Below are positions 905 to 19,627 of a stretch of 22,128 nt of DNA, in pieces. Each line of letters begins with the position of its first letter. The stretch's first letter is position 1. Both the position numbers and the translations under genes were made by a program. The notes under the pieces were generated by a model that saw only the letters and a list, made by a program, of their open reading frames with translations, did not search any database and was not told the origin of the DNA. Origin of the DNA: a virus; IMG/VR virus record IMGVR_UViG_3300021960_000582, positions 1-22,128 of that record; one strand, written 5' to 3'.

Positions 905-1132
905 CTATTCTTCCGTTATCTCTTCTTCTGCGGCTTCTTCTTCGTTAGTAATAGAAGCAACCAGCATATTAGTGAAAGCGGACAGAGCAACCTCAGTCTC
1001 AGTAAACTGGAAACGCAGGTTTGCTTGCTTGCCGCGAAGCTGTTCAATGTGAGCTAACAGATTGCGTTGCTCATCAGTTAAGTCCTCAACACTGTATTCT
1101 GTGTCGTTAATTGTTACTGTAGTATCAGTCAT
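905..1132 (-). CDS. DUF6447-like small acidic phage protein
   Basis: This is a 75-residue acidic, soluble protein. Residues 6-22 (VTINDTEYSVEDLTDEQ) are followed by a helical stretch, LLAHIEQLRGKQANLRFQF, then TETEVALSAFTNML. The C-terminal tail is almost all Glu and Ala. The order 'short beta hairpin with an x-I-x-x-x-x-Y-x-x-x-D-L core, then a helix' is what I remember of the DUF6447 family, widespread in marine phages and uncharacterised. Its first bases overlap the end of the glycosyltransferase gene by eight, so the two are probably co-translated. No membrane segment or catalytic motif is present. Function is unknown, and the family assignment is from memory of the pattern. Confidence 0.7.
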   Translation of the reverse strand: MTDTTVTINDTEYSVEDLTDEQRNLLAHIEQLRGKQANLRFQFTETEVALSAFTNMLVASITNEEEAAEEEITEE

Positions 1133-1994
1133 TTAGTTTTCCTTTATACAGATCCACTACCTGAGTAGGATCCACCATGATGTTACGGGGATCGAGCGAA
1201 TTAAATTTTGATTCAATCCAAACATCTTTCATGTGAAAATTAATATTTGTATTTTCACTATAACCAAGTTGGTTAAACCGGGTACTGCCCCACAAGACCA
1301 CACCATTTGTCCTTGCGGATTGAGACATATGCTGTAAGCTAGAATCGATTCCGATAAAACCTTCAGCATTTTTAAGTAATTCGTGCCACACGCCAAAATT
1401 TGTCATAAATGTTTTGTGTGCGTTTTGGTACTGTGGCTCATTGGGCAATCCAAAGAATAATATTTGCCTATCTGGATTGTCTTCTTTCAATATATTAACA
1501 ACTTGCTGTGCCATCCAATACGGATAATTTCTACCGGGATCACCGCTTTGATATGGCGTTTTTAGACTTTCGTCCATTGGCGGTTGCCCACCAGTAAACT
1601 GCACTATCATGTAGTTGTCAAAAATTTCTTGCTCTTTCTTTACCTTATCATGCTCTTCGATTAGGTATTCAGTGTAAACTTTAGGCCGCATTTTCTTGTT
1701 GTACTTAACGCCTAACAATTTACAATACGTTTCAATTAAGTGCTCATTACCTTTTAGGTAATTTGATTTATATGGCTCGCAATACTTTATGTCACCCGCA
1801 GAGGTAATTCGTTCGTCTCCATACGCTATTTGATTAGCTGGAAAGACCCACTTAACATTCGGATTGTTTGCAAACACTTCTGGGTAGGGTGTATACACTT
1901 GTATTTGCTCACCGTCTTTTTTTACAAGCGCATCGATGATTGCGCTAAAGGCAACGGCTTTACCGATGCCACCTTCAACAATGTAAGTATTCAT
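1125..1994 (-). CDS. GT9-like (heptosyltransferase-type) glycosyltransferase
   Basis: The 289-residue product has GT-B architecture. A glycine-rich opening, GGIGKAVAFSAII (residues 8-20), is the usual first loop of ADP-heptose:LPS heptosyltransferases. The C-terminal half carries GFIGIDSSLQHMSQSA (212-227) and VVLWGS (232-237), matching the donor-binding D-S-x-x-x-H...A...v.lwGst signature of family 9. It is shorter than the 320-350 residues common for bacterial members. The acceptor is unknown. It could glycosylate a virion protein or alter the host surface to block superinfection. The gene has its own predicted promoter and an AAGGAA site upstream. It looks AT-rich: the 60-base rows at 1681 and 1741 hold 20 and 22 G+C. 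Together these suggest a separately acquired unit. Confidence 0.75.
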   Translation of the reverse strand: MNTYIVEGGIGKAVAFSAIIDALVKKDGEQIQVYTPYPEVFANNPNVKWVFPANQIAYGDERITSAGDIKYCEPYKSNYLKGNEHLIETYCKLLGVKYNKKMRPKVYTEYLIEEHDKVKKEQEIFDNYMIVQFTGGQPPMDESLKTPYQSGDPGRNYPYWMAQQVVNILKEDNPDRQILFFGLPNEPQYQNAHKTFMTNFGVWHELLKNAEGFIGIDSSLQHMSQSARTNGVVLWGSTRFNQLGYSENTNINFHMKDVWIESKFNSLDPRNIMVDPTQVVDLYKGKLND

Positions 1995-2058: not shown

Positions 2059-2946
2059 TTAGCCCGTATAAGTTCCGTTCGCAGTGAAAGTAAGTATTTT
2101 GAAAGCGCCACTTGTAGCGACGGTGGGCGATCCCGTTGTGGTGCCACTATAATTTGCGGTAGGTACTTTAAGTATTACGGCTCCGTCACCTCCTGCGCCC
2201 GCTTGCGCTTGCGACCCGCATCCACCTCCGCCGCCGCCTAATGCGTCAGTTCCGTCAGTTCCGTTTCCAGTTCTACTTACTCCGCCGCCACCTCCGCCGC
2301 CAGAACCGCCTGCGCCTCCTGATGTACGACCACTGCCGCCGCCGCCGCCGCCGTATACAGTAGATGTGCCAGTTATGTCAGAAGTTAATCCTGCGCCTCC
2401 TGCACCGCCGAAGTCCGATATTGCGGTACTACCGTCGCTATCTCCTGCACCGCCACCCGCGCCTCTATACGCACCATCGCCACCCGCGCCTATATTATTT
2501 GCACTGCTAGCACTGCCGCCGTACCCAGCACCGGGACTTGAGTGAAAACCGCCGCCGCCGCCGCCGATCCCTGCATTATCGCTAATGTCATTTTGATAGC
2601 CTTGACCACCACCACCCCCGCCGATGACGGTTTGGGTTGTGATATCTGACCCCGAAATTAAGGATGATGTGCCATCGTTGCCCGGAGTCGCAACTCCAGA
2701 TGCTGGGGCCGCCCCTCCTGCACCAACGGTTATTGTATATACTGTTCCGGGGGATAGAGTTACGGCACTAATGTCTTTTTTGCCGCCCCCTGCACCGCCT
2801 CCGCCTGCTTCATCTCTATCTGATGGATAGCCATTGTCATTATCTCCACCTTGTCCACCAGAGCCGCCCCCTCCCACCAACAAGAGTCGGATATCATAAG
2901 GACTAGCAAGGGCTAAGGATGATGAAACAATTCCAATATCAAGCAT
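2059..2946 (-). CDS. Glycine-rich fibre-tip / adhesin-like protein
   Basis: The product has 295 residues. After about 20 residues comes LLLVGGGGSGGQGG, then some 220 residues dominated by runs of four to seven glycines broken by short Ser/Ala/Asp/Asn links. The closing segment GGDGAVILKVP and a C-terminal TFTANGTYTG complete it. That start and finish are typical of phage and surface glycine-rich domains. Gly runs of this kind form polyglycine-II sandwiches in the T-even adhesin gp38 and in S16-type fibre tips, which bind host receptors. The gene is coupled to the giant fibre by a TAATG overlap with GAGG upstream. I infer it caps or decorates the fibre and sets host range. The gly-rich loops are the likely variable receptor contacts. 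Confidence 0.75.
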   Translation of the reverse strand: MLDIGIVSSSLALASPYDIRLLLVGGGGSGGQGGDNDNGYPSDRDEAGGGGAGGGKKDISAVTLSPGTVYTITVGAGGAAPASGVATPGNDGTSSLISGSDITTQTVIGGGGGGQGYQNDISDNAGIGGGGGGFHSSPGAGYGGSASSANNIGAGGDGAYRGAGGGAGDSDGSTAISDFGGAGGAGLTSDITGTSTVYGGGGGGSGRTSGGAGGSGGGGGGGVSRTGNGTDGTDALGGGGGGCGSQAQAGAGGDGAVILKVPTANYSGTTTGSPTVATSGAFKILTFTANGTYTG

Positions 2947-5900
2947 TATGAAGCCTCAAGATCACCAACAAGAACCCAAGTATCTGTTGCTAGTTTTATA
3001 ACACTAGCCGCTGACCACTGCGCTCTGAGTTTTAGTGTTTGTGATGAGTTGACTGTCACCCCCGTACCTGCGGCTACAGTAACTTGCCCTGCTCCCTTGG
3101 CAAGCAAATCAATCTTAGTCCCTGTGGGGTATGCTACAGATGAGTTTGGAGGGATTGTTACGGTAACAGCAGAGGCATTGTCTAGTGTGACTAATTTGGA
3201 GCGATCTGCTAAGACTGTGGTGTAGGTTGTGCCTGTCTGAGCGTTTATTGAAATGTTTGAAGCAATTGAACCAGTAACGTCTACGCCTGTGGAGGTTGTT
3301 TCTAGTTTCTTAGCGTTATCGTAGTAGAGGTCAACAGAGCCGTTAGCAGTGGCAAGAATCATTAGTTCTGTATTATTGCCATTGTAAAGTTGAAAAGCAT
3401 CAGTAAGAATTTGCAAGGTGGATGTAGATTTTATGTAGTTATTACCAGAGACATGATAAAGCTGTAAATCGTCACTATCGCCGATAAGTAATTGCCCTTT
3501 GGATGTTGCAAAGTCCCAGTCTGGGAGATTGATATCACCTAATACAGTCATATCACAAAGAACTAAAGCGCCTCCTGTAGCAGAAACACAGAAGCCAGCA
3601 CCCGGTACACGTAAACAGGTGACACTAGCATTACCAAGGGTGATTTCATTACAAGCTGTGGCACTACTTGCGAACGCCGCATAACCAATAGCTGTATTGT
3701 TACAGCCTGTCGTTACGTTATAACCAGCACAATCACCAACGTAACTATTATAACAACCTGTTGTTACACTTGCGCCGGAGAATTGTCCAATTCCTGTATT
3801 GTTACAACCAGATGCGTTGACAGCATACCCACTTCCCGATCCAAAGTAAGTGTTATTACAGCCCGTTATGTATTTGCCTGCTTGGTAGCCAACTGCTGTA
3901 TTGTTGCAGGATGTTAGTAATCCGCAGTTTAAAGTGTCGTAGCCAACTGCTGTATTTTTCGTGTTAGCACCGGTATGGCAAAACCCTGAGCAACTGCCAA
4001 TATATGTGTTATAGTCACCGCATACGCCGTTCTTACCCGAAGAGTATCCCATAAATACATTTTGACTACCGGTGCCGCCGTTGTTAGAATATGCACCTAT
4101 CATGACGTTTGCGTTGCCAGTCTGTGCGACACCGGCATAGTCGCCAACGATCACTCCACAATTGCCGGTATAACCCATGGTGCCATCGCCTACGGCTACT
4201 CCATTCTTAGACCCATCATGTTCAAATACACTAGCAATCATTACGCAATAAGAATTAGTCCAATCGCCTATGCGTATACTTCCGATAGCACTTGTTGGCA
4301 TAAAAGAGTCTAGCATACTACCGATTATAATGTCATTATTTCCTGTTGTTATATTACAACCAGCTAACCGCCCCATAAGGGTGTTAAGACATCCTGTTGT
4401 AACACTATCACCAGCACCATAGCCGATGAAGGTATTCCGTGTACCCGAGGTAAGGCTATTTCCAACCAGATGCCCCAACATTGTATTGCAAGATCCACAG
4501 GTTAGGGCAAGAGCAGAACAACTACCAATTAACGTGTTCCCGTGAGCTTGACCAGCCACTGTCGAATGAATAACTTTAGCTGTGTCGTTGCCAATGACTA
4601 CGTTATGACCTTGTGGTGTATTAGTTGGTGACGCTGTGGAGTAATGCCCGATGAAAATATTGTGCTGACCAGAACTCCCGGATCCAGCCGCTAATGCTTT
4701 CGTACCAATAGCAATTTGATCTGGGCAGATTGCGCCAGCCTTGTGGGCGCATAGACCAATTGCAATGACATTATTAGCCATGGGGCCGACTCCAGCACAA
4801 CCACCAATTGCAATTAGATTATTATTGTAGTAATTATTTGCGCCAGCAAAATAGCCTATCTGAACTGAACACTGGCCGCCAGCCCAATTATCATACCCAG
4901 CACAGTACCCAATTGAAACAGATCCGGGTTGACCTATGCAATTTCCTGCATAAGCGCCTATAGCTACACTACCGGTATTAGATGATAAACCGCCGTTCAA
5001 CTCCCCGGCACAATGACCTATAGCTACTGAACAATCTTGAGCGTTTGTGCCAGTCCCTATAAGAACTTTACCCCCGGTTGGCGCAGTCGTAATTCTCGTT
5101 CCGCATACTGTAATGCCATCACTGTTAACAATGAGTCGTTCAGCCGCCGCCGCTCCTGCGGCCATAGTGCTAAATCTGAGATCAAAGTCTTCTGAGGTAG
5201 CCGTTACATCTGTAGAGACAGATTCAATAAGTGCGCCAGTTTCTACATTGCTTGCCGATGTTTCAGTATTCAGCGCAATACCAGTTCCTACGCCAACCGC
5301 TGGAGTTCCAGATGTTGTACGTTCTAGTGTAAGCAGATTTATAACTGAGTTTGTTGAGGCATCATCGCAAGTAATACAATTGATGTCAGAGGTAAGAGCA
5401 AGTGTTCCAGCCGCAAGAGGTAAACATAGTGCAATGTTGGCGGATTGCGAGGGGTTTTCCATAAGGCATGTTTTATAGAGATAATTGCTACTTAAATCTA
5501 TTCGACCGGGAATTTCCACACCGCTTGCTGTAGTAAACAGTTTAATAACACTGTTGTAGTCTAAAGCAATGCCATTGCCTAATTCTTCGATTAGTATAGT
5601 TTGGTTAGCTTTTCCAATATACAGTCCGCTAGATCCACCATATATCTGCAAAGACCCCGGAGCATTACAAGCATGTATGAAAGCATTTACTCCGTTAGAA
5701 TAAATGTCTAAATCATTACCTGCTCCAAAACGTAATGTGTCATCTGTTCCGCGTGTTGCACTGTCTCCAAAGGCAATGTTATTACCGTTGGTATCTAAAG
5801 AACCGCCTAGTTGTGGAGTAGTGTCATTCAGAAGATCACTGCTAATTCCAGTAAGGCCAGAACCGTCTCCTGTGGGGGAAAGAACATCAGTACCAATTGC

Positions 5901-8900
5901 AACGCCTAGATTAGTACGTGCTGTCGCCGCATCATTTAGATCTGATAAATCATTAGCGACTAGTAATGCGCCCGAAAGAGAGGCGTATGCCGCAACCCAA
6001 GCAGACCCGGTGTACACTTTCATGACACCGTTAGTGCTGTCAAAGTATAAAGCACCGCCGACTAATGCGTTACCATCATTATCTACAGATGGGTCTGAGG
6101 TTTTTGATCCTAAGTATCTATCATCAAAACTATCAAATGCGGCAAGCGTAGAATCTCTAGCAGACTCTGCGGCAGTTTTAGCCGCCTGCGCTTTTGCGTT
6201 ATAGTGCAATGCTGAATAGCCTGTCGTTACAGAATCGGAAAGAGTAAACTGAGTATCTTCTGCAGTAATTGCTAACTTGCAAGCGTCAGTTGCATTAGCG
6301 CAAGCGTTAGTAATTGCAGTCATGTTTGTAGCGGCACAAGTTACATCTGCCGCGCAAGTAGCTACACAAGTTACATTTGCAGAGATACCTGCAACAGCAG
6401 TAGTGTCAGAACTAATCCCTGCAACAGTCGTAACATTTCCACTAATAGTAGCAACACCCGTAACATCAGACGAAATGCCCGCAACTGTTGAAACATTCCC
6501 AGAGATTCCTGCTACAGTGCCGATGTCTGTGCCGTCAGCGGCTACTGTAACTACGTCAGCACTAATACCCGCAACACAGGTAACATTAGCCGAAATGCCT
6601 GCAACAGTAGTGACATTCGCGCTGTTTCCACTTACGGTAGTTACATTGCCTGATATCCCTGCAACAGTTTGTATTGCGTTAGTTGCAGAAGTACCGTCTT
6701 CGATATCAGCAAGAGTTTGAATATCAGAGGAAATTCCTGATACTACGCCAATATCAACCCCGTCTGCCGCCACAGTCGTTACATCAGATGATATACCAGC
6801 TACAGATGTAACACCGCTTGATATACCCGCAACCGTAGTGACATTAGACGAAATTCCTGCAACAGTAGTCACATCAGAATTGATACCTGCTACGGTGTTA
6901 ACATTAGCAATGTTAGTTGCCGCAGTATTAACATTAGCGATTGAAGTAGCGACAGTGTTAACATCGGTGATATCGTTTCCGACAGTGTTGACGTTAGCAA
7001 TATTGTTCGCAACCGTATCAATTTCAGATACAACTTCGTTCAAGTCATTCGCCGCAGTAATAACATCTGCAATGTTGTTTGCTACGGTGTTAATGTCCGC
7101 AATGTTGGTAGCAACAGTAGTGATGTTGGCATTGTTAGTGGCCGCTGTAGTTACATCACTTGAGATCCCTGCAACCGTCGTTACGTTGCCTGAGATACCA
7201 GCTACGGTAGTAACATTAGATGAAACGCCAGAAACAGTAGTAACGTCTGAGCTAATACCAGCGACTGTACCAATATCAGTGCCATCAGCGGCCACAGTAG
7301 TAACATCTGAACTAATCCCCGCGACAGTTTGAATTGCGTTAGTAGCAGATGTTCCATCTTCAATGTCGGCAAGTGTTTGAATGTCTAAAGAAATACCTGC
7401 AACGGTTCCAATATCTGTGCCGTCACTAGCCACCGTAGTTACATCGGCGCTAATGCCAGCTACGGTAGTAACATTACCACTAATTCCACCGACAGTATTT
7501 ACGTTGCTGATGTTTGTCGCAACTGTATCAACATTTGAAATACTTGCGGCAACAGTTTCAATTTCAGAAACAACCTCTTGCAAATCATCTGCTACTGTTT
7601 GAACTTCCGTAAGTTTATCTTGTACATCTTGAATATCTCCAGAAATTCCTGCTACCGCAGTTACGTCAGAAGATATACCTGCAACGGTAGTAACATCAGA
7701 ACTAACACCAGCTACTGTTGTTACATTGGCGGATATGCCAGCTACAGTGCTGACGTTTGTAGTGTTTCCAGCAACGCAAGTTACATCCGATGTAATCCCG
7801 CCTACGGAAGTTACATTTGAAGAAATTCCAGCTACTGTGTTTACATCGGCAATATTAGTAGCTACGGTTCCAATATCTGTGCCGTCTGAAGCAACTGTAG
7901 TGATATCAGAAGATATCCCGGCTACAGTATTAATGTTAGTTTGCTCAGATGAAGATGGGGATGTATACGACCAAGCGGATGTTCCTGTGTCGTATACTTT
8001 CATTCTATTGTTTGTTGTGTCGAAATATAATGCTCCGTCTAACAAAGCATCGCCATCGTTATCTAATGACGGGTCTGTTGCTTTAGCGCCTAAATATCTA
8101 TCATCAAATGAGTCAAAGCTTGCCGCCGCGTTTGTCGCGGAATTAGCGGCATTAGTTTCGGATGTGGCCGCGCATGTAGCTGAAGCCGCCGCGCATGTAG
8201 CACTATCAGCCGCCGCAGTTGAGCTACCTAAAATTCCATCAACATAAGTTTTTGTAGTTAGATCTGCACTATCTGTTGGCGTGTAGGTAGTAGTAATTTT
8301 ACTAGAACCCATGTCAATAGCGCCGCTCATGGTGCCACCGGCAAGGTTAAGTTTTAGAGCATCACCTGCATCAACGTAAGATTTATTAGTTGCATCGCCG
8401 TTTGCAGTTGCCAGTCCCAAGCCAGTGATTTTACAATTACCCATGGCAATAGCACCAGTCATGGTTCCGCCAGCTAATGGCAACTTAGTTGCAATACTAT
8501 TAGTAACATTTGTAGAGAAACTTGCATCGTCGCCTAATGCCGCCGCTAATTCGTTTAGGGTGTTGAGAGCACCCGGCGCTGAGTCTACAAGGTTAGTTAT
8601 TTGTGTATCAACATAATTTTTTGTAGCCGCGTCTTGCGCAGAAATTGGATCCGTTACATTTGTAATTTTAGTGCTAGTAACATCCAGCGTTCCGTTAATT
8701 GTGACATTGTTAAATGTAGAACTGCCACTTGATGCAGTCACATTTCCAGTCAAAGTAGCATTAAGTGCTCCTGCAACGCAGACGTTACAAAAATTAGATG
8801 TGCCTGAAGCGGCTGTTACATTTCCAGTGACAGCGCCTGTTATGGGTCCGAAGAATCCTGTAGTAGCACAAACAGTCGTTCCCTTAACACTTGAAGCAGA

Positions 8901-9491
8901 AGAAGCGCCAATGGCAGTTCCATCAATATTACCAGCATTAATGTCTACACTTGCTAATGTAGCTTGTCCTGTCGTAGTTATAGTAGTAAATACACCAGAC
9001 GTTGCAGATGTTGCACCGATAGTTGTGCCGTCAATAGCGCCGCCGTTAATATCAACAGTAGTTAATGTAGATGTGCCTGTTGCATTTAGCGTTGTAATGT
9101 TAGCGGTATCTGCTGACAAAGAATCAATGTTTGCTGTGCCGTCGATATAAATATTTTTAAATTCAAGTAATGAAGTACCCAGATCAATATCATCATCTGT
9201 AACAGGAACAATAGCACCGTCTTGGAATCGTACTTGTTCTACTGCGGCGGAAGATACCTCAACAAAAACACCCACTCGATTATTGGATGTGTCTACAACA
9301 ACTTTATTCTTAGCATCCGCGTCAGCAAGTACAGGAACGTAGCCTCCTTCTGCCGCTGATCCATCATGCTTGTGTCCAGTAAGTGCCGCAAAGGCATCGC
9401 GGATTGCGTTGTATTCGGCGTTAATAGGTGCAGATTTTACAATCTCGCCTGTAACGATATCCGCAACGGATTGTCGAGTATAGCCTGCCAT
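2946..9491 (-). CDS. Giant repeat-rich tail fibre protein (2181 aa)
   Basis: Domains in order: residues 1-110 are a virion-attachment-like head, including FAALTGHKHDGSAAEGG, a pattern shared by many marine phage fibres. Residues 110-280 are beta-rich T/G/A repeats. Residues 280-420 hold two KNYVD/KSYVD-type shaft units. At 425-458 is an Ala-rich helix, then a FDDRYLG module at 459-510, decapeptide repeats at 521-1060, and a second Ala-rich helix plus FDDRYLG module ending at 1170. Residues 1260-1460 form a mixed beta region. Residues 1474-1955 are YadA-head-like repeats of the type NTAVGYQAG. The C-terminal cap is 2090-2181. There are 48 cysteines, 29 of them between 1474 and 1979, and none after 1979. 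No peptidase-S74 intramolecular chaperone is recognisable, although it often follows such repeats. The start ATG directly follows the upstream stop, with a GGAGACAGAAG site. It probably forms trimeric side or central fibres with the glycine-rich protein at the tip. Confidence 0.9.
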   Translation of the reverse strand: MAGYTRQSVADIVTGEIVKSAPINAEYNAIRDAFAALTGHKHDGSAAEGGYVPVLADADAKNKVVVDTSNNRVGVFVEVSSAAVEQVRFQDGAIVPVTDDDIDLGTSLLEFKNIYIDGTANIDSLSADTANITTLNATGTSTLTTVDINGGAIDGTTIGATSATSGVFTTITTTGQATLASVDINAGNIDGTAIGASSASSVKGTTVCATTGFFGPITGAVTGNVTAASGTSNFCNVCVAGALNATLTGNVTASSGSSTFNNVTINGTLDVTSTKITNVTDPISAQDAATKNYVDTQITNLVDSAPGALNTLNELAAALGDDASFSTNVTNSIATKLPLAGGTMTGAIAMGNCKITGLGLATANGDATNKSYVDAGDALKLNLAGGTMSGAIDMGSSKITTTYTPTDSADLTTKTYVDGILGSSTAAADSATCAAASATCAATSETNAANSATNAAASFDSFDDRYLGAKATDPSLDNDGDALLDGALYFDTTNNRMKVYDTGTSAWSYTSPSSSEQTNINTVAGISSDITTVASDGTDIGTVATNIADVNTVAGISSNVTSVGGITSDVTCVAGNTTNVSTVAGISANVTTVAGVSSDVTTVAGISSDVTAVAGISGDIQDVQDKLTEVQTVADDLQEVVSEIETVAASISNVDTVATNISNVNTVGGISGNVTTVAGISADVTTVASDGTDIGTVAGISLDIQTLADIEDGTSATNAIQTVAGISSDVTTVAADGTDIGTVAGISSDVTTVSGVSSNVTTVAGISGNVTTVAGISSDVTTAATNNANITTVATNIADINTVANNIADVITAANDLNEVVSEIDTVANNIANVNTVGNDITDVNTVATSIANVNTAATNIANVNTVAGINSDVTTVAGISSNVTTVAGISSGVTSVAGISSDVTTVAADGVDIGVVSGISSDIQTLADIEDGTSATNAIQTVAGISGNVTTVSGNSANVTTVAGISANVTCVAGISADVVTVAADGTDIGTVAGISGNVSTVAGISSDVTGVATISGNVTTVAGISSDTTAVAGISANVTCVATCAADVTCAATNMTAITNACANATDACKLAITAEDTQFTLSDSVTTGYSALHYNAKAQAAKTAAESARDSTLAAFDSFDDRYLGSKTSDPSVDNDGNALVGGALYFDSTNGVMKVYTGSAWVAAYASLSGALLVANDLSDLNDAATARTNLGVAIGTDVLSPTGDGSGLTGISSDLLNDTTPQLGGSLDTNGNNIAFGDSATRGTDDTLRFGAGNDLDIYSNGVNAFIHACNAPGSLQIYGGSSGLYIGKANQTILIEELGNGIALDYNSVIKLFTTASGVEIPGRIDLSSNYLYKTCLMENPSQSANIALCLPLAAGTLALTSDINCITCDDASTNSVINLLTLERTTSGTPAVGVGTGIALNTETSASNVETGALIESVSTDVTATSEDFDLRFSTMAAGAAAAERLIVNSDGITVCGTRITTAPTGGKVLIGTGTNAQDCSVAIGHCAGELNGGLSSNTGSVAIGAYAGNCIGQPGSVSIGYCAGYDNWAGGQCSVQIGYFAGANNYYNNNLIAIGGCAGVGPMANNVIAIGLCAHKAGAICPDQIAIGTKALAAGSGSSGQHNIFIGHYSTASPTNTPQGHNVVIGNDTAKVIHSTVAGQAHGNTLIGSCSALALTCGSCNTMLGHLVGNSLTSGTRNTFIGYGAGDSVTTGCLNTLMGRLAGCNITTGNNDIIIGSMLDSFMPTSAIGSIRIGDWTNSYCVMIASVFEHDGSKNGVAVGDGTMGYTGNCGVIVGDYAGVAQTGNANVMIGAYSNNGGTGSQNVFMGYSSGKNGVCGDYNTYIGSCSGFCHTGANTKNTAVGYDTLNCGLLTSCNNTAVGYQAGKYITGCNNTYFGSGSGYAVNASGCNNTGIGQFSGASVTTGCYNSYVGDCAGYNVTTGCNNTAIGYAAFASSATACNEITLGNASVTCLRVPGAGFCVSATGGALVLCDMTVLGDINLPDWDFATSKGQLLIGDSDDLQLYHVSGNNYIKSTSTLQILTDAFQLYNGNNTELMILATANGSVDLYYDNAKKLETTSTGVDVTGSIASNISINAQTGTTYTTVLADRSKLVTLDNASAVTVTIPPNSSVAYPTGTKIDLLAKGAGQVTVAAGTGVTVNSSQTLKLRAQWSAASVIKLATDTWVLVGDLEAS
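3627..5072 (-). repeat. Cysteine-rich YadA-head-like beta repeats (fibre residues 1474-1955)
   Basis: The protein repeats the motif G-x-x-N-T-x-I/V-G-x-x-A-G with 13-20 residue spacing, for example TGCNNTAIGYAA, SCNNTAVGYQAG and GCNNTYFGSGSG. Repeats of this type build left-handed beta-roll or trimeric head domains of the YadA/Hia kind and the passenger of endosialidase-chaperoned fibres. Cys often occupies the position just before N-N-T, where other proteins usually have Asp, Ser or Asn. It also takes the Ala position of A-G (HCAG, YCAG, GCAG). Whether these cysteines are paired, buried or reduced cannot be told from sequence. Confidence 0.75.
5982..6137 (-). repeat. FDDRYLG module, copy 2 (fibre residues 1119-1170)
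   Basis: This is the second copy of the module, FDSFDDRYLGSKTSDPSVDN through ALYFDSTNGVMKVY to GSAWVAAYA. It is preceded by the Ala-rich AQAAKTAAESARDSTLAA helix and lies just past the end of the decapeptide array. It differs from copy 1 at scattered residues, so the duplication is not recent. Confidence 0.8.
6312..7931 (-). repeat. About 54 tandem decapeptide (30-base) repeats in the fibre gene
   Basis: Residues 521-1060 of the fibre repeat a ten-residue unit with consensus TTVAGISSDV. Common variants are T-N-I-A-D-V-N-T-V-A and T-V-A-x-D-G-T-D-I-G. Hydrophobic residues recur with 3-3-4 spacing. The DNA is degenerate at third positions, so selection acts on the protein unit, though recombination between units is still likely. 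The spacing breaks twice in matching fashion: a 14-residue step near 632-646 is restored by a 16-residue step near 706-722, and the same pair recurs at 812-826 and 926-942. The 30-residue segments at 701-730 and 921-950 are nearly identical and exactly 220 residues apart. Confidence 0.9.
7962..8117 (-). repeat. FDDRYLG module, copy 1 (fibre residues 459-510)
   Basis: This segment encodes FDSFDDRYLGAKATDPSLDN and continues through ALYFDTTNNRMKVYD to SAWSYT. It precedes the decapeptide array. The same module returns 660 residues later, after the array. Each copy follows an Ala-rich helical stretch. The module is common in marine phage fibres and looks like a small beta domain closing a coiled coil. 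Copies at both borders suggest the decapeptide array sits inside a duplicated cassette. Confidence 0.8.
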
Positions 9492-13584: not shown

Positions 13585-14466
13585 TTATCGTGCAGATCCA
13601 GAAAGATCGTAGATAAACTTACCTGTACGAATTGCTTCGGCAATTTCGTCTGCCATTTTTTCATATTGCTGTGCAGTCATGCGAGCAACATCAGATTCTT
13701 TAAAGTAACTGTTAGACTCGTCTGCTTCAGGGGAAGATCTTTCAGATCGAGTTCCAATAGCTTTTGCCGCATCGCGGTCAGAAGAAGATCTTTTCTTTCC
13801 ACTAATGCCCATATCCGCCTTATACAAATCGATAGCGCGAGATGCAGAGACAGCGTCATTATCGTTATCGTAAAGTGCATCCTGCACCCACTTAGGTTGT
13901 TCTTCCACCCAGTTATGGAAATCGTCCGTATCGCGGATCTGTTCAAAGTCGGGGTGTAAACGCATGAGTTCAGCTTCAGCTTTTTCTCGCCGCGCTTCTA
14001 ACTTCATTTCGTCGATTTCTTTAAATTTATTTTCATATTCAGACGCAGTTTCATTTGCTTTTTTCATTGCAATAGTTTCAACAATCTTAGCAACATCTGG
14101 ATACCTTTCCATCCAAGCTGTCAGTTCATCCTCAGACTTTGGATACTTGATTTCTTTTTTAGTAGACGCATCAAGTTGCGCTTTTAACTGGTCGATTTGT
14201 TCTTGTAATTTTTCCTCAGTCTTCTGCGCGTGTCGGCGCAAATCGCCGTACCTTTTCTTAAAGGTTTTCTCTTCCGCTTTCTTAGGCTCTGGACCTTCAT
14301 CAACTTGTTCATTATCTTCAGTAGCTTCTTCTTTTACTTTCATTAATTCAGCAAGTTCAGCTTCTTCATCTTCAATGCGCTTTTTATTCGCATTCCTCTT
14401 AGCAAAGCCAGATGCGACTTTTACTTGTTCGACTTTCTTAGTCATTTCAGTTGTTGTTGTAGACAT
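13585..14466 (-). CDS. Capsid scaffolding protein
   Basis: The 293-residue product is highly charged and mostly helical. Residues 28-60 are acidic. Residues 66-100 (KTFKKRYGDLRRHAQKTEEK and on) form a strong coiled coil. A conserved block, RYPDVAKIVETIAMKKANE (121-139), and a second coiled coil (141-170) follow. Then comes HPDFEQIRDTDDFHNWVEEQ (171-190) and WVQDALYDN. The C-terminus ESDVARMTAQQYEKMADEIA (257-276) continues to a basic GKFIYDLSGSAR end. That end resembles the coat-binding helix-turn-helix of scaffolding proteins. The position just before the major capsid gene is standard. No protease motif is seen, so it is probably released or degraded by other means. An AAAGGA site precedes the ATG. 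Confidence 0.87.
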   Translation of the reverse strand: MSTTTTEMTKKVEQVKVASGFAKRNANKKRIEDEEAELAELMKVKEEATEDNEQVDEGPEPKKAEEKTFKKRYGDLRRHAQKTEEKLQEQIDQLKAQLDASTKKEIKYPKSEDELTAWMERYPDVAKIVETIAMKKANETASEYENKFKEIDEMKLEARREKAEAELMRLHPDFEQIRDTDDFHNWVEEQPKWVQDALYDNDNDAVSASRAIDLYKADMGISGKKRSSSDRDAAKAIGTRSERSSPEADESNSYFKESDVARMTAQQYEKMADEIAEAIRTGKFIYDLSGSAR

Positions 14467-14532: not shown

Positions 14533-15126
14533 TTAAACTTCGTGCGTTCCTAATTTCATTGCATGGTTATGCTCCAATGGAGTAGAACTATACACATGAA
14601 AAGGTATTACAGTAAGACTACTGTCTTCTGTCTCAAAATGATGAGGTTCCATTTTATCTAAAATAATAACATCGCCTTCTTCCAGCAAATGCTTTTCATC
14701 TCCCTTCATTCCAATAATGCTCCAGCCTTGTCCTTCGTATACGTAAACAACTCTAGCAGTAGAATGAATGTGATGCTTTTGTTCAGACGCATGTGGGGGA
14801 ATAGTTAATTTTTGTAATGTCGGGTCGCCGGGACGAATTGGGTGAATAAGCTGGTCAGTGCTACATCCATTAATGTAAGGCAAGTTTGTGTCACTGCCGT
14901 TAATAGCAGAAGAGCGATACGGACAATTATATCCACGTAAAACTACACACATAGAGTTTGTTTCAATAGATCTTTTCCCCGGCGCAACAAAAACTTTTTT
15001 GTCACTAACTGCCCAAGCAGTATCCCCGCGAGCAACATCTACTTTATGATTTCCGACATAAATAGTGTGCGCGTACAAACCAGAACCTTTAATAATTTCT
15101 GTTTCGCCTTTCTTAAATAACCTCAT
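14533..15126 (-). CDS. Cupin-domain protein
   Basis: The product has 197 residues. The C-terminal half is a clear cupin barrel. EQKHHIHSTARVVYVYEGQG (115-134) supplies the metal-binding His pair (His119 and His121) and the turn glycines of motif 1. GDVIILDKMEPHHF (151-164) supplies the motif 2 Gly and His. The usual motif 1 glutamate is not at the standard spacing. The N-terminal half includes RGYNCPYRSSA (64-74), NGCSTDQL (86-93) and GDPTLQKLTIPPH. I recognise this whole pattern from marine phage and bacterial genes without an assigned reaction. Its ATG lies inside the end of the Asn-synthetase-like gene (14-base overlap, AGGAAG site), so the two are surely co-translated and probably share a pathway. 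It could be a sugar isomerase or epimerase, a dioxygenase or a small-molecule sensor. Confidence 0.8.
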   Translation of the reverse strand: MRLFKKGETEIIKGSGLYAHTIYVGNHKVDVARGDTAWAVSDKKVFVAPGKRSIETNSMCVVLRGYNCPYRSSAINGSDTNLPYINGCSTDQLIHPIRPGDPTLQKLTIPPHASEQKHHIHSTARVVYVYEGQGWSIIGMKGDEKHLLEEGDVIILDKMEPHHFETEDSSLTVIPFHVYSSTPLEHNHAMKLGTHEV

Positions 15127-16099
15127 ATTCTTCCTGTCTAAATTTATAAATTTTCAAATCACTAGTGATTCTACTCAAGTCTTTTGCAAAACTATCACTA
15201 ACAGTATTGCACAACGACGGCACTTTTATTTTTGATTTAAGATACCACAAATCTTTTGCAAAATCAAATATATATTGTTTTGCTGGCATTTTATATGTCT
15301 GCGGCTTTGTGAAGTCTGGAAACTTTTCTTCTATTGGATGTGTAATTGCCCAGCTTTGGAATAAATCAGAATCAAAAAAATGTATGGTATTCCGAAAATG
15401 CTCCGGTCCAAGAGAAACACACATTCTTAACTGAACCCACTGATACTTTAGTGTAAAGTTTAACCACCACAAAAAATTTGCTAACGATCTGTCTTCTTCA
15501 AAAAACGGATTTTGTTTTGCTATTGGTTCCAACTTTAAGTAGTTGACAAGTTTCAAGTTCGTGGCCCACTTATCTTCTAGCAACTCTGGAGATAAGGTAA
15601 ACATTATAGCACTACCAAATAACTGATCTCCTATCTCACCAGTCACAATGTAGTACGGCTTTTCAGATTCTTTTACAAGCGTTTCTAGAACATCTAAAGA
15701 TGTTACCCACTGAACAGCTACTCTAGATTTAAGATGATTTTCGTAAAACTCTGGATACTCGTAATAACTTTCGTCTGACATGACTACTGTTATATTTACT
15801 TCAGGATACTCTTCATTGTATTTTATCAAAGCGCACAACACGGACGTACTGTCTATTCCTCCAGAATATGAAACGCGAATATCCCTTCCAGTATTCTTTG
15901 CTTTTTTCAGTAGTTGTTTTGCGCGAATGTCCATAATCTCTGAAAACGACTTTGGCGTTGTTTCAGTTGGCATACGAGAAATTAGTTTTAAATTTTGTTT
16001 TATTGTATTTGTTCTATCAATAAGGGGAGACTGAAATATCCTTCTCTCCTCACCTAACAATTCTTCATCTTCAATTATAGTCTTATTGTATAAATCCAT
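15113..16099 (-). CDS. Asparagine-synthetase-fold (N-type ATP pyrophosphatase) enzyme without glutaminase domain
   Basis: The product has 328 residues. The PP-loop SGGIDS (79-84, within VSYSGGIDSTSVLCAL) binds ATP pyrophosphate. TGEIGDQLFG (153-162) matches the G-E-G-A-D-E-L-F-G signature of the Asn_synthase domain rather than QueC- or GMP-synthetase-type PP-loop enzymes. A late Lys-rich stretch, AKDLWYLKSKIK (281-292), may hold the catalytic lysine. No N-terminal Cys-led glutaminase domain precedes it, so it cannot use glutamine by itself. Such stand-alone forms adenylate a carboxylate and make an amide with ammonia or an amine, as in lasso-peptide cyclases or beta-lactam synthetase. It lies six bases after the 1173-aa gene with no clear Shine-Dalgarno site. 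Hand counts in the 60-base rows at 15181, 15481 and 15841 gave 19, 20 and 26 G+C, against 30-31 in two capsid-gene rows. Confidence 0.8.
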   Translation of the reverse strand: MDLYNKTIIEDEELLGEERRIFQSPLIDRTNTIKQNLKLISRMPTETTPKSFSEIMDIRAKQLLKKAKNTGRDIRVSYSGGIDSTSVLCALIKYNEEYPEVNITVVMSDESYYEYPEFYENHLKSRVAVQWVTSLDVLETLVKESEKPYYIVTGEIGDQLFGSAIMFTLSPELLEDKWATNLKLVNYLKLEPIAKQNPFFEEDRSLANFLWWLNFTLKYQWVQLRMCVSLGPEHFRNTIHFFDSDLFQSWAITHPIEEKFPDFTKPQTYKMPAKQYIFDFAKDLWYLKSKIKVPSLCNTVSDSFAKDLSRITSDLKIYKFRQEEYEVI

Positions 16100-16105
16100 T
16101 AATTA

Positions 16106-19100
16106 TTAGCCATAGGCGTTTTCCGATGCGGCTGTTTGACTTGTACTTCTTCCCAACCCATCCGAACCGCTTAGGTTATCTCTCATGCGGTCCGCTTCGC
16201 TTCTGCCCGTGCTAGTGCTAGTGGTTCTCGATGACCCACTATCTCGACTTGCCGATACGGTGCTTACGGCATACTCCTTTCCGCCAGCTACAATAGGATC
16301 ATCCGAATAAGACATGAATCCAGTATAACCTATATCCAAGTCTGGATCTACAGTTTCATCGAATTTGTCTGATCCTATTTCTCCAATGCCACCTAAACCA
16401 CCGGAAGATACAGCTAGGTTATCTCTCATCTGATCCGCTTGTGTGGTATCATATTCGCCAGTACCATTATACCAATCTAAGTCATCCTGACTAAAGCCTG
16501 TAAGGAAGTCCGCCGTCATTGCAGTCTGGACTGAACCCACTTTCATTGCATTGCCGCCGCCTACATCAATTTTTCCGCCACGAGCATCTTCACCGCCGCC
16601 GAATTTACCAGCCGCTATATCGCGTTCTAATTGCCCAAGATCAGTATAATCTCCTACGCCCGTACCCGCAAACGCATCTGATTGAATTGCGAAAGCTGTA
16701 GCAAGAGCAGGAGATGCTCCAGCTTTTACCGACTCAGTAAATACCTTTTGTGCGTTTGCACTAGTAACGCCTTTTACATATGACGGCGTTCCTGTAGAAC
16801 TACCTGTAGTGTAGGAAAGTAAATTTCGGACTTCTGGTGGCAATTGATTAAAAGTATTGTTTTGATATTCTCCTGTTTTTTTCTGCATCATACCAAGAGA
16901 AACTGCGGCCCCTATAATGTTGCCCGTTGCTAGCGATAGACCAGCACCGACCAATCCTTTGATTTGTGCGCTACGATATTTATTAACATTGTCTTGTATT
17001 GCCGCCGCGTTTGTGTAGTTTGGATTGACTTCTAAAAACCCACGAGCAACACCCATAACAGGATCAGCATTTGCATCCGAACGACCTCCGTCATCGTTTT
17101 CATCGCGGCCTTCGCCACCTCCGCTTTCTGTTACTGCTGTTGTTTTAATAACTGGATCTACTTTACTTTCTGTAGTGCTGGGTTTTCCTAAAGCTTCTTC
17201 AGCGGCCTCATTAATTCCTGCCATTCTGGTCTGGAAAGTATATCCTTCTGGGATATTAAACTGTGGAACGCCATTGACAACAGGAACATAAATTACATTA
17301 CCTTCTGCATTTCTGTATCTACGCATTTCGTAAGACATAGGCGCAGGTGGTGTTATTGTAGGCTGAACAACAGACTGAGTAGTTCCCTGTTGCTCTGTTT
17401 GTGGGCTAAACCCACCGGTGTTGACAGCACCTTGTCCTGTAGGTACTATGGGCGCTACAGTTTTGAATTGATTTTGTGCATAGACAGATTGAGGAGCGCC
17501 TTGTTGCACACCAGAGAATTTGGGGGCTGTGTGTACTGCTCCCGGCTTCATATAGTTTGGTGTTTCTTGCCCACGGTATTGCGGAACATTTCCGCCGATA
17601 GCCATTTCAATCGGTTCATGTGGAACAGTATCAGCAATGACCGCCTCATCCGAGTTGCCCATTTGACCCATGTCTTCCATTTTAACTAAACCTTCTTTAG
17701 CTTGCTGTCTCATTTTCATCAGCTTATCTAGGCCAATATAACGAACTACATCCGCAGGAAAAACAAACTCTCCCTCGCTAAGCATTGCGGGAACATCATC
17801 CCTTACTTCTTTTGCCAATGCTCCGGGTGGGATATCATTTCCCGATACCGGATCTACATCTCCGCCTGATTTCATCTCTAGGGGTTCCTCATTTTGTTTG
17901 CTCTCAGAAGAAGTCCCGAAAGCGAATTTATTTGCTAAGTAACTTGCAAGTAAGCCAGCACTTCCTGCAGAGTATAAAGATAAAGGTTTATTCTTTTCAT
18001 CGTCACCAAGTATTTGATTCACGTAGTATTGGCGCAAGTCAAGTGCTTGTGTCTCTACAAACTGTTCTCCAAATGCACCATCCCGACGTTGTTTAATTGT
18101 TACAACAGGAAAATCACCATAGTTCTCAACACGTTTTGGGGATAGCAAAGCTTCGTCATAAAACTGTATGATGCCCCTTCCGCCAAAACCTTCGCCTTCA
18201 TATAATGTCAAAGGCTCATTAACTTCGGCAGATCTGCGAATTTCCGCGACGGGTATATTTAATTCTTCGGCAACGTCTTTGATAGGATATCGGCGTGTAA
18301 GATCAAATCCAGCGTTAGAACCACGTTCTATAATTTCATCATCAAGGGCGCTTAATTCTTGTCTAAGGTTGTTAGGTAAAATATATTCCTCCATGAAATC
18401 GACAAAAGTCATAGGCTCTTGTCCTTCTTCTTTTAACATGGTAGAAATATTTCTTTCGTAATTTTTTATTCTTGCAACTACCGAATCTCGATGTGATGGC
18501 GCTATGTTATTAGAGTACGATGAAAATTTTGCAATAAGATAGTCTCTAGCTATGTCTCCAAGATCTTCTGGGTCAAAAGAAGAAACACCCGTCATATCCT
18601 CGATTATGTCAATACCTGCATTTGCCCCAATGCTATCCCCGATATTTTCAGCGTCCTCTATATATTTTCCAAAAACCTCGTCAATATTAACACCCTGCGG
18701 CTCGAAAGATACTAGCTCCCCCTCTTTACCCGAAATTGGATCTGTTCCGCGCTCAATTATGGGTATGGCATCTGTAGTTTCTGATACCATTTCTCGCGCT
18801 TGTACGGACTCGGCTATTTCTCTTCCCGGCGCAACTGCAACATATCTGTCACCTCTACGGATAGCCAACCTAATAGCTTCTTTTACGCCCAGCTTTTCCC
18901 AATTTTCTACCATCGGAAGAACTGGATCTGCCGCCGCTACCTGTTTTAATTCTTCAAGTTCTGGTGGACGCTGTCGCCTTTGTTGTATATCTGACTGTAT
19001 TTCTAGGATGTTTGTTACTCGATCATAATCTTCCGTTACACCTTGATTGACGCGAAGATGAAAAAGTTGATCTGTTTCGGGGAAATGTTGCCCCGCCATT

Positions 19101-19627
19101 GCGTCTTCTTCCTCAATCTTTAGTGGGTTTCTGCCCAAAGCTTTACGCAGACGAGATTGCTCGCCACCACGCTGACTGTAAACTATTTCTTGGTATGTGT
19201 CTGGTTCTCCAATTGAAGGCGTGTGAAATGCATAAGCAGGTTCACCAGCATACTCCATGTCAGGCATTTTATTGGTACTCGCCCCCTGATAATTGTCAGG
19301 AGTATTAACTATTTGGCGTGTTCTGTAGGTGGACCGACCAACTAAACTTTCCTCACGACGACGATCAATATCATCGAGAAGTTCTTGCTTAGTCATGCGC
19401 TTATTGCGAAGCGGTCCAGTTTTAGGATCATAATCATCTAATAACCCTAAATCTTTCATCTCCTCAGTCGCTACACCTTCTTTCTGCATTTGCTTAATGT
19501 AAGACGCGGCAGGCTTTGGCTTTGTTTGCCCACGCGGAGAGTCCTCAACAGACTTCCTAGATTTAAGAAAATAATCTCCAAAGACATCTTTGGTCTGTTT
19601 TGCTACCAGCCTACCTAATGTTGACAT
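16106..19627 (-). CDS. Large multidomain virion-associated protein (LPD-like head plus DDVPAMLSEGEF motif)
   Basis: The product has 1173 residues. Residues 45-275 and 480-540 resemble a large polyvalent-protein domain found in many phage proteins. GVATEEMKDLGLLDDY and MTKQELLDDI (51-87) are followed by NILEIQSDIQQ (206-216), the EIQSDWHQ signature. WEKLGVKEAIRLAIRRGDRY (243-262) and FYDEALLSPKRVENYG (489-504) complete the match. Hydrophobic SAGSAGLLASYLANKFAF (553-570) follows. Residues 610-650 hold DDVPAMLSEGEFVFPADVVR and GLDKLMKMRQQAKEGL, a motif very common in marine phages. A Pro/Gln-rich linker (680-770) leads to VIYVPVVNGVPQFNIPEGY, then a second hydrophobic segment (887-913). The tail is Ser/Gly/Asp-rich, with MRDNL twice (1067, 1148). 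I infer an internal or ejected virion protein placed between portal and scaffold. Its enzymatic activity, if any, is unknown. Confidence 0.8.
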   Translation of the reverse strand: MSTLGRLVAKQTKDVFGDYFLKSRKSVEDSPRGQTKPKPAASYIKQMQKEGVATEEMKDLGLLDDYDPKTGPLRNKRMTKQELLDDIDRRREESLVGRSTYRTRQIVNTPDNYQGASTNKMPDMEYAGEPAYAFHTPSIGEPDTYQEIVYSQRGGEQSRLRKALGRNPLKIEEEDAMAGQHFPETDQLFHLRVNQGVTEDYDRVTNILEIQSDIQQRRQRPPELEELKQVAAADPVLPMVENWEKLGVKEAIRLAIRRGDRYVAVAPGREIAESVQAREMVSETTDAIPIIERGTDPISGKEGELVSFEPQGVNIDEVFGKYIEDAENIGDSIGANAGIDIIEDMTGVSSFDPEDLGDIARDYLIAKFSSYSNNIAPSHRDSVVARIKNYERNISTMLKEEGQEPMTFVDFMEEYILPNNLRQELSALDDEIIERGSNAGFDLTRRYPIKDVAEELNIPVAEIRRSAEVNEPLTLYEGEGFGGRGIIQFYDEALLSPKRVENYGDFPVVTIKQRRDGAFGEQFVETQALDLRQYYVNQILGDDEKNKPLSLYSAGSAGLLASYLANKFAFGTSSESKQNEEPLEMKSGGDVDPVSGNDIPPGALAKEVRDDVPAMLSEGEFVFPADVVRYIGLDKLMKMRQQAKEGLVKMEDMGQMGNSDEAVIADTVPHEPIEMAIGGNVPQYRGQETPNYMKPGAVHTAPKFSGVQQGAPQSVYAQNQFKTVAPIVPTGQGAVNTGGFSPQTEQQGTTQSVVQPTITPPAPMSYEMRRYRNAEGNVIYVPVVNGVPQFNIPEGYTFQTRMAGINEAAEEALGKPSTTESKVDPVIKTTAVTESGGGEGRDENDDGGRSDANADPVMGVARGFLEVNPNYTNAAAIQDNVNKYRSAQIKGLVGAGLSLATGNIIGAAVSLGMMQKKTGEYQNNTFNQLPPEVRNLLSYTTGSSTGTPSYVKGVTSANAQKVFTESVKAGASPALATAFAIQSDAFAGTGVGDYTDLGQLERDIAAGKFGGGEDARGGKIDVGGGNAMKVGSVQTAMTADFLTGFSQDDLDWYNGTGEYDTTQADQMRDNLAVSSGGLGGIGEIGSDKFDETVDPDLDIGYTGFMSYSDDPIVAGGKEYAVSTVSASRDSGSSRTTSTSTGRSEADRMRDNLSGSDGLGRSTSQTAASENAYG

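Follow-up and report, generated by a model that had tools for sequence, protein, structure and literature searches.

Enzymes of the AsnB fold include a group, comprising beta-lactam synthetase, carbapenam synthetase and the lasso cyclases, that makes amides without glutamine. The known structures of this group retain an Ntn-type N-terminal domain. On the phage side, two proteins in BFVD (A0A6J5LYZ2 and A0A8S5PBV1) bear the name 'Asparagine synthase', which is automatic only, and the papers searched gave neither function, partners nor genomic context for them, nor any description of a PP-loop gene paired with a cupin. A paper on the auxiliary genes of uncultivated pelagiphages mentions neither a cupin nor asparagine (PMC9599517).

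A gene pair within the head-assembly region

We analysed the 22,128-base IMG/VR record IMGVR_UViG_3300021960_000582 over its whole length (the window); the record is probably incomplete. It belongs to an HMO-2011-type marine podophage, with a capsid protein 75.6% identical to that of Roseobacter phage CRP-345 and 74.6% to that of HMO-2011. Pfam and PHROG scans gave, in order along the minus strand, an SU10-type portal, a 1173-aa virion-type protein, the PP-loop and cupin pair, a scaffold and the major head protein, so that the neighbours are those described in an earlier, sequence-only reading, which had put the pair between a portal/virion-protein block and the scaffold. The features are as follows.

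15113..16099, minus strand: AsnB-fold PP-loop synthetase, 328 aa, without a glutaminase domain (ORF, motifs, fold and profile comparison)
14533..15126, minus strand: two-barrel cupin, 197 aa (ORF, Pfam Cupin_2, model)
15113..15126, minus strand: 14 nt shared by the end of the PP-loop gene and the beginning of the cupin gene, with AGGA shortly upstream of the cupin ATG
13585..14466, minus strand: scaffold-like gene (phrog_13678, E 7.9e-59), also present in relatives; a flank that marks the slot, outside the module
16106..19627, minus strand: 1173-aa virion-type protein (ORF, slot comparison); the other flank that marks the slot, outside the module
2059..2946, minus strand: glycine-rich tail protein, Gly_rich_2 (PF21722, E 3.9e-15)
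1125..1994, minus strand: GT9-like glycosyltransferase-type gene adjoining the tail genes (PF01075, E 0.0018, below the Pfam cut-off)

The cupin start indeed lies inside the last 14 bases of the PP-loop gene, and the pair is AT-richer than the capsid gene, both as previously claimed: GC content is 34.1% for the PP-loop gene (the lowest among the genes compared) and 39.4% for the cupin, against 45.4% for the capsid gene and 43.3% for the contig. It is possible that the Gly_rich_2 protein is a client of the pair, and that the GT9-like gene is its companion. Two short viral contigs (L161 and L163) carry scaffold fragments 98–99% identical to that of the window and, judged by these fragments, likely represent the window's phage type in different samples.

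The pair occupies a variable slot

The pair is absent from HMO-type relatives whose slot is intact; in these, the large virion protein is followed by the scaffold either directly or after one short ORF; HMO-2011 itself is arranged in this way. In CRP-345, a SAM methyltransferase (L023:11905-12609) occupies the slot that the pair holds in the window. Since the slot is empty or differently filled in relatives, the pair is an accessory insertion, and it was likely acquired horizontally. Its absence from the intact-slot relatives also argues against its being a head component or having a strict head-assembly role, in line with the sequence-only reading, which had seen no morphogenetic role for it.

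The pair is rare and AT-rich within the HMO-type group, as might be expected of a passenger island that has no current function in this phage lineage. However, both ORFs are intact, the active-site residues are conserved (see below), and another contig (L020), which is cut within the cupin, keeps it directly before the scaffold in the same slot, with 96% identity over the 46 residues present. We consider a functionless passenger highly unlikely.

Fold and predicted active site of the PP-loop protein

The PP-loop protein carries the motifs SGGIDS (residues 79–84), TGEIGDQLFG (153–162) and YKMPAK (269–274) and the lysines K290 and K292; its ORF contains SYSGGIDSTS and VTGEIGDQLFGS. It belongs to no Pfam family at that family's cut-off and has no good match in Pfam, NCBIfam or PHROG; PF00733 gave no match anywhere in the window record, and hence did not reach the Pfam gathering cut-off. 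Comparison of its profile with that of bacterial AsnB by hhalign, in contrast, placed it with AsnB (P 97.3, E 1.8e-11). An AlphaFold model built with 50 family members (pLDDT 88) had as its best PDB matches in Foldseek human ASNS (9.8e-6), carbapenam synthetase (3.2e-5) and beta-lactam synthetase (4.6e-5), followed by the hydroxyamidotransferase TsnB9 (2.9e-4); AsnB was matched too.

The protein retains the catalytic set D83, E155, D158 and K290 in the profile alignment with AsnB. At default hhalign settings, E155 and D158 fall on the corresponding residues of the AsnB motif, while K290 pairs with the lysine of the AsnB RPK motif at a permissive alignment setting only. In a 94-row alignment of the family, D83 is conserved in 92 rows, D158 in 83, K290 in 82 and E155 in 67, and S79, G80, G81, D83 and S84 are each kept in 91–93 rows; this conservation supports a predicted working site. 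The N-terminal glutaminase domain (Cys2, Ntn) is absent from both the ORF and the model, and only about 75 aa precede the PP-loop motif, which therefore leaves no room for it. The earlier description of an Asn-synthetase-fold protein without glutaminase is thus borne out by the ORF, hhalign and Foldseek, and the protein is likely, from its sequence and model, an adenylate- and amide-forming enzyme. Among the window ORFs scanned (those of at least 80 aa) we recognised no lasso precursor, RRE or protease.

A tRNA or nucleobase modification enzyme of the TilS, LarE, QueC or MnmA type would agree with the weak matches of family members to LarE, TilS and QueC-like models and with the mnmA annotation of homologues in Pseudomonas phage Cygsa01. 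Against this, the LarE, TilS and QueC-like matches span the PP-loop region where coordinates are given, and the fold search ranks AsnB and beta-lactam synthetase first, over the full length, with LarE and TilS limited to about 130–150 columns in the well-superposed rows. We turned down a TilS, LarE or QueC identity on these fold and motif grounds, and hold a tRNA or nucleobase modification enzyme to be very improbable.

The cupin

The second protein matches Pfam Cupin_2 (E 1.4e-9, 38 bits, cut-off 27.2), and its model has two barrels (pLDDT 87.5), the nearest folds being generic cupins. Across 31 viral and bacterial sequences, Q116, H119, H121, R125 and H162 are invariant, R125 standing in place of the motif-1 Glu of cupins, which is absent. 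The H119/H121/H162 triad fits a predicted metal site.

A large and almost undescribed phage family

A scan of IMG/VR with a profile of the PP-loop family found relatives in at least 405 uncultured viral stretches, and 80 loci were retained from it; the same protein used as a single sequence found no viral relatives, so that detection needed the profile. Among 50,697 phage records, relatives were found in Cygsa01 alone, which has two copies (XAI71054 and XAI71056; L021:6043-6951 and 7236-8192) in the tail module, beside a Gly-rich protein. These copies do not retain the glutamate of the TGE motif, and no cupin of the family was seen with them. No cupin relatives were found in the phage records, and plasmids yielded no relatives. 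In 399 evenly drawn Pseudomonadota genomes, the PP-loop profile had no match at E <= 1e-20, although it does recover the bacterial homologue of locus L120, and the only strong match of the cupin profile was the seed genome itself. In viral fold libraries, the matches to the model (TM 0.68–0.71) are uncultured-phage proteins named asparagine synthase or uncharacterised; of these, the two BFVD proteins named above share the fold over the full length (TM 0.70–0.71, 19–21% identity). The PP-loop phage family is thus large and almost undescribed, being spread over hundreds of uncultured phage contigs, nearly absent from the sampled bacteria, and named automatically at best.

Some phages carry tandem copies, at most five, which are diverged. 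The five lie in L110:5910-16521, where T4-like genes for the small and the large terminase flank them and a TRAP transporter.

Recurrent but loose pairing of the two families

A PP-loop ORF was present in 18 of 20 viral loci that had been fetched by the cupin alone. The order of the genes varies: PP-loop then cupin in the window, L028, L043, L089, L104 and L113; cupin then PP-loop in L001, L005-type loci and L075; a gene between the two in L030 (cupin first); and opposed strands in L026. Conversely, a cupin lies within 3 kb of the PP-loop gene in 22 of 56 non-redundant PP-loop loci, some of which were found via the cupin, and the majority of PP-loop loci have no cupin. For the bacterial cupins of L119, L121, L122, L123, L125 and L127, a PP-loop gene is absent from the genome or the locus. 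Because the two families were re-paired repeatedly in unrelated phages, a shared pathway is indicated; as each is also found without the other, this pathway is modular, with no fixed pair. The dedicated two-gene pathway of the sequence-only reading accordingly stands as to recurrent pairing and, by the refuting condition which that reading had itself set, fails as to its being obligatory.

The bacterial neighbourhoods of the cupin vary. In L119, the cupin cluster adjoins flagellin and includes a DegT aminotransferase, a methyltransferase, an AMP-ligase, a PglD-like acetyltransferase, a sulfotransferase and a GT41/HMW1-like protein, the last of which suggests a flagellin-modification locus; L121 has a similar layout by sequence, the domains having been checked in L119. 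These flagellin-side clusters span L119:4910-14858 and L121:6334-15178. In L124, L126 and L128, the genes after the cupin encode a double methyltransferase and an AsnB-like protein that lacks the usual MC start, while in L120 methyltransferases, a PP-loop gene and the cupin lie near chemotaxis genes. No obvious glycan genes were seen in L125. Taken together, the bacterial settings fit a pathway in which an acid or an amino sugar is tailored for use on a surface appendage.

Acid transporters and tailoring enzymes accompany PP-loop genes

The tie of PP-loop genes to the transport of organic acids is strong, genes for DctP, DctM, TctA and TctC being found near them. The DctP proteins include a phage family that starts at the mature domain (as in MKTIKWVIAHEP; the absence of a leader was judged by eye) and has at least 188 viral relatives. 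A PP-loop ORF was present in 57 of 79 loci of this leaderless family and, after clustering at 80% identity, in the loci of 12 of 19 DctP groups, within 300 nt in 9 of them, though the DctP seeds were drawn from PP-loop loci, which biases these figures towards finding the link. Counted from the other side, a transporter gene was detected in just 6 of 54 non-redundant PP-loop loci. In the clade of the window enzyme (support 0.875), all the other members (L045, L053, L181 and L086) have a DctP or TctA-type gene nearby. The window pair adjoins no transporter, aminotransferase or methyltransferase in what is probably a partial record. Since genes for organic-acid transporters accompany PP-loop genes, we favour a small-molecule acid as the substrate.

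Examples of the leaderless DctP genes are L045:4317-5255, L053:9148-10092, L116:5286-6248 and those of loci L180-L258. An operon-like run in L214:5770-13217 consists of a PP-loop gene, a TctC-like gene, a leaderless DctP gene, a second PP-loop gene and TctB/TctA-like genes.

Class I methyltransferases, 2OG-Fe(II) oxygenases and radical SAM enzymes are recurrent neighbours of PP-loop genes; others are a GNAT protein, a fatty-acid desaturase and two families without a name, whose members measure about 214 and 244 aa. Next to the PP-loop and cupin genes of L113 lies a gene for a fused AMP-ligase/methyltransferase. This company bears on the simplest interpretation of the fold, an ammonia-dependent synthetase of asparagine (or a similar product) that tunes host amide pools, with the cupin acting on a related metabolite. 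The AsnB fold, the catalytic residues and the names of the BFVD relatives all speak for such an enzyme. A single housekeeping product, however, is hard to reconcile with up to five diverged tandem copies or with the way in which cupin, methyltransferase, radical SAM and AMP-ligase genes recur beside them, and PF00733 and the asparagine-synthase models scarcely match the PP-loop family. We judge this interpretation improbable.

Tail proteins near PP-loop genes

Gly-rich tail proteins are encoded beside the PP-loop gene in L005-type loci and in Cygsa01, and other adjacent repeat-rich tail proteins have Ser/Thr/Trp repeats (L045) or collagen-like repeats (L086). Upstream of the PP-loop gene in L089, L096 and L102, tail-type proteins with Cys repeats (13–19% Cys) lie near a radical-SAM gene, and L251 has an ORF with 14% Cys in the same arrangement. 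It is possible that the Cys-rich proteins near radical SAM undergo a RiPP-like maturation.

Tail-type genes lie one or two positions ahead of a PP-loop gene at L045:986-1819 (the Ser/Thr/Trp repeats), L051:5259-6500 (52% Ser+Thr) and L086:3-800 (the collagen-like repeats). The Cys-rich ORFs lie at L089:4720-5130, L096:2623-3120, L102:407-901 and L251:4722-5090 (e.g. ...CACACDCACACDC...). In the window, the 2181-aa fibre (2946-9491) has 48 cysteines (2.2%), mostly in its C-terminal half, and few were seen in the large tail proteins of relatives that we examined. A thiol-dioxygenase-like cupin working on Cys-rich fibres was considered and rejected, as nothing links this fibre to the cupin.

The sequence-only reading had speculated that the substrate of the pair is a virion protein, and for the window this is possible. 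In its general form, the proposal is that a carboxylate, either a side chain or a small acid, is activated and attached to a protein of the tail fibre or tail tip, or that a cross-link is formed, in a RiPP-like manner, with cupin, radical-SAM, 2OG-oxygenase and methyltransferase as alternative tailoring partners. The position of PP-loop genes right behind repeat-rich tail proteins in several lineages, the Cys-repeat proteins with their radical-SAM gene and the Gly_rich_2 protein of the window phage all agree with it. However, low-complexity ORFs within three genes of a PP-loop or cupin gene were not significantly enriched (45 observed, 42.9 expected, p = 0.31, within-locus permutation), which also disposes of the idea that the enzyme is always found beside such tail proteins. 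Moreover, about 11.6 kb separates the window pair from the Gly-rich gene, a nearby repeat-rich protein is lacking in many T4-like loci, and the TRAP/TTT transporters are hard to account for. We therefore regard direct modification of virion proteins as unlikely, but as a serious rival. A more elaborate scheme would be a widespread phage tailoring system in which AsnB-fold enzymes, present in arrays, activate organic acids captured by transporters or leaderless DctP; helped by cupin, radical-SAM, methyl- and glycosyltransferase partners, they would attach these acids to repeat-rich tail-tip proteins, which would become chemically decorated adhesins. This scheme seems to us quite unlikely. Given that phage tail modules are hyperplastic, the neighbours of PP-loop genes may be chance passengers.

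Proposed function

Our preferred reading, which we put forward tentatively and at close to an even chance, is that the two genes are a swappable accessory (moron) pair for carboxylate adenylation, amide formation and small-molecule tailoring directed at a surface structure. From the fold and the conserved residues, the SGGIDS motif would bind ATP-Mg and the PP-loop protein would adenylate a carboxylate; the acyl-AMP would then react with an amine to give an amide. Because there is no glutaminase, the donor would be ammonia in free form or a second substrate that brings its own amine. The cupin, through its putative H119/H121/H162 metal site, may act on the same acid, either prior to amidation or following it. 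The genomic company points to a small organic or sugar acid, the product of which would tailor a tail fibre or a host surface glycan. For the PP-loop family as a whole, the probable reaction is the joining of an amine and an organic or sugar acid; a small carboxylate is the best-supported reading of the substrate, and a surface appendage or a glycan is where the product probably ends up.

The recurring partners of the family (cupin, leaderless TRAP binding protein, radical-SAM enzyme, methyltransferase and tail genes) offer a route to unrecognised phage chemistry, for which modified virions or captured host carboxylates are the candidates.

Comparison with known systems

The PP-loop protein resembles AsnB and ASNS in its fold, its SGGxDS PP-loop, its (T/S)GExxD motif and its C-terminal Lys. 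Unlike them, it has no N-terminal glutaminase, lies below Pfam detection and carries motifs of its own, namely an N-terminal DRTNT-type motif, WW, YK and K-x-K. Beta-lactam and carbapenam synthetases are among its top structural matches, but their Ntn-type N-terminal domain is missing from the model. The phage proteins called 'Asparagine synthase' in BFVD probably belong to the same broad family. The window cupin, for its part, has in common with His-triad cupins the HxH...H metal motif and the cupin fold, and differs from them in having Arg125 for the motif-1 Glu, an invariant Gln116, and YINGCST and PIRxGDP segments of its own.
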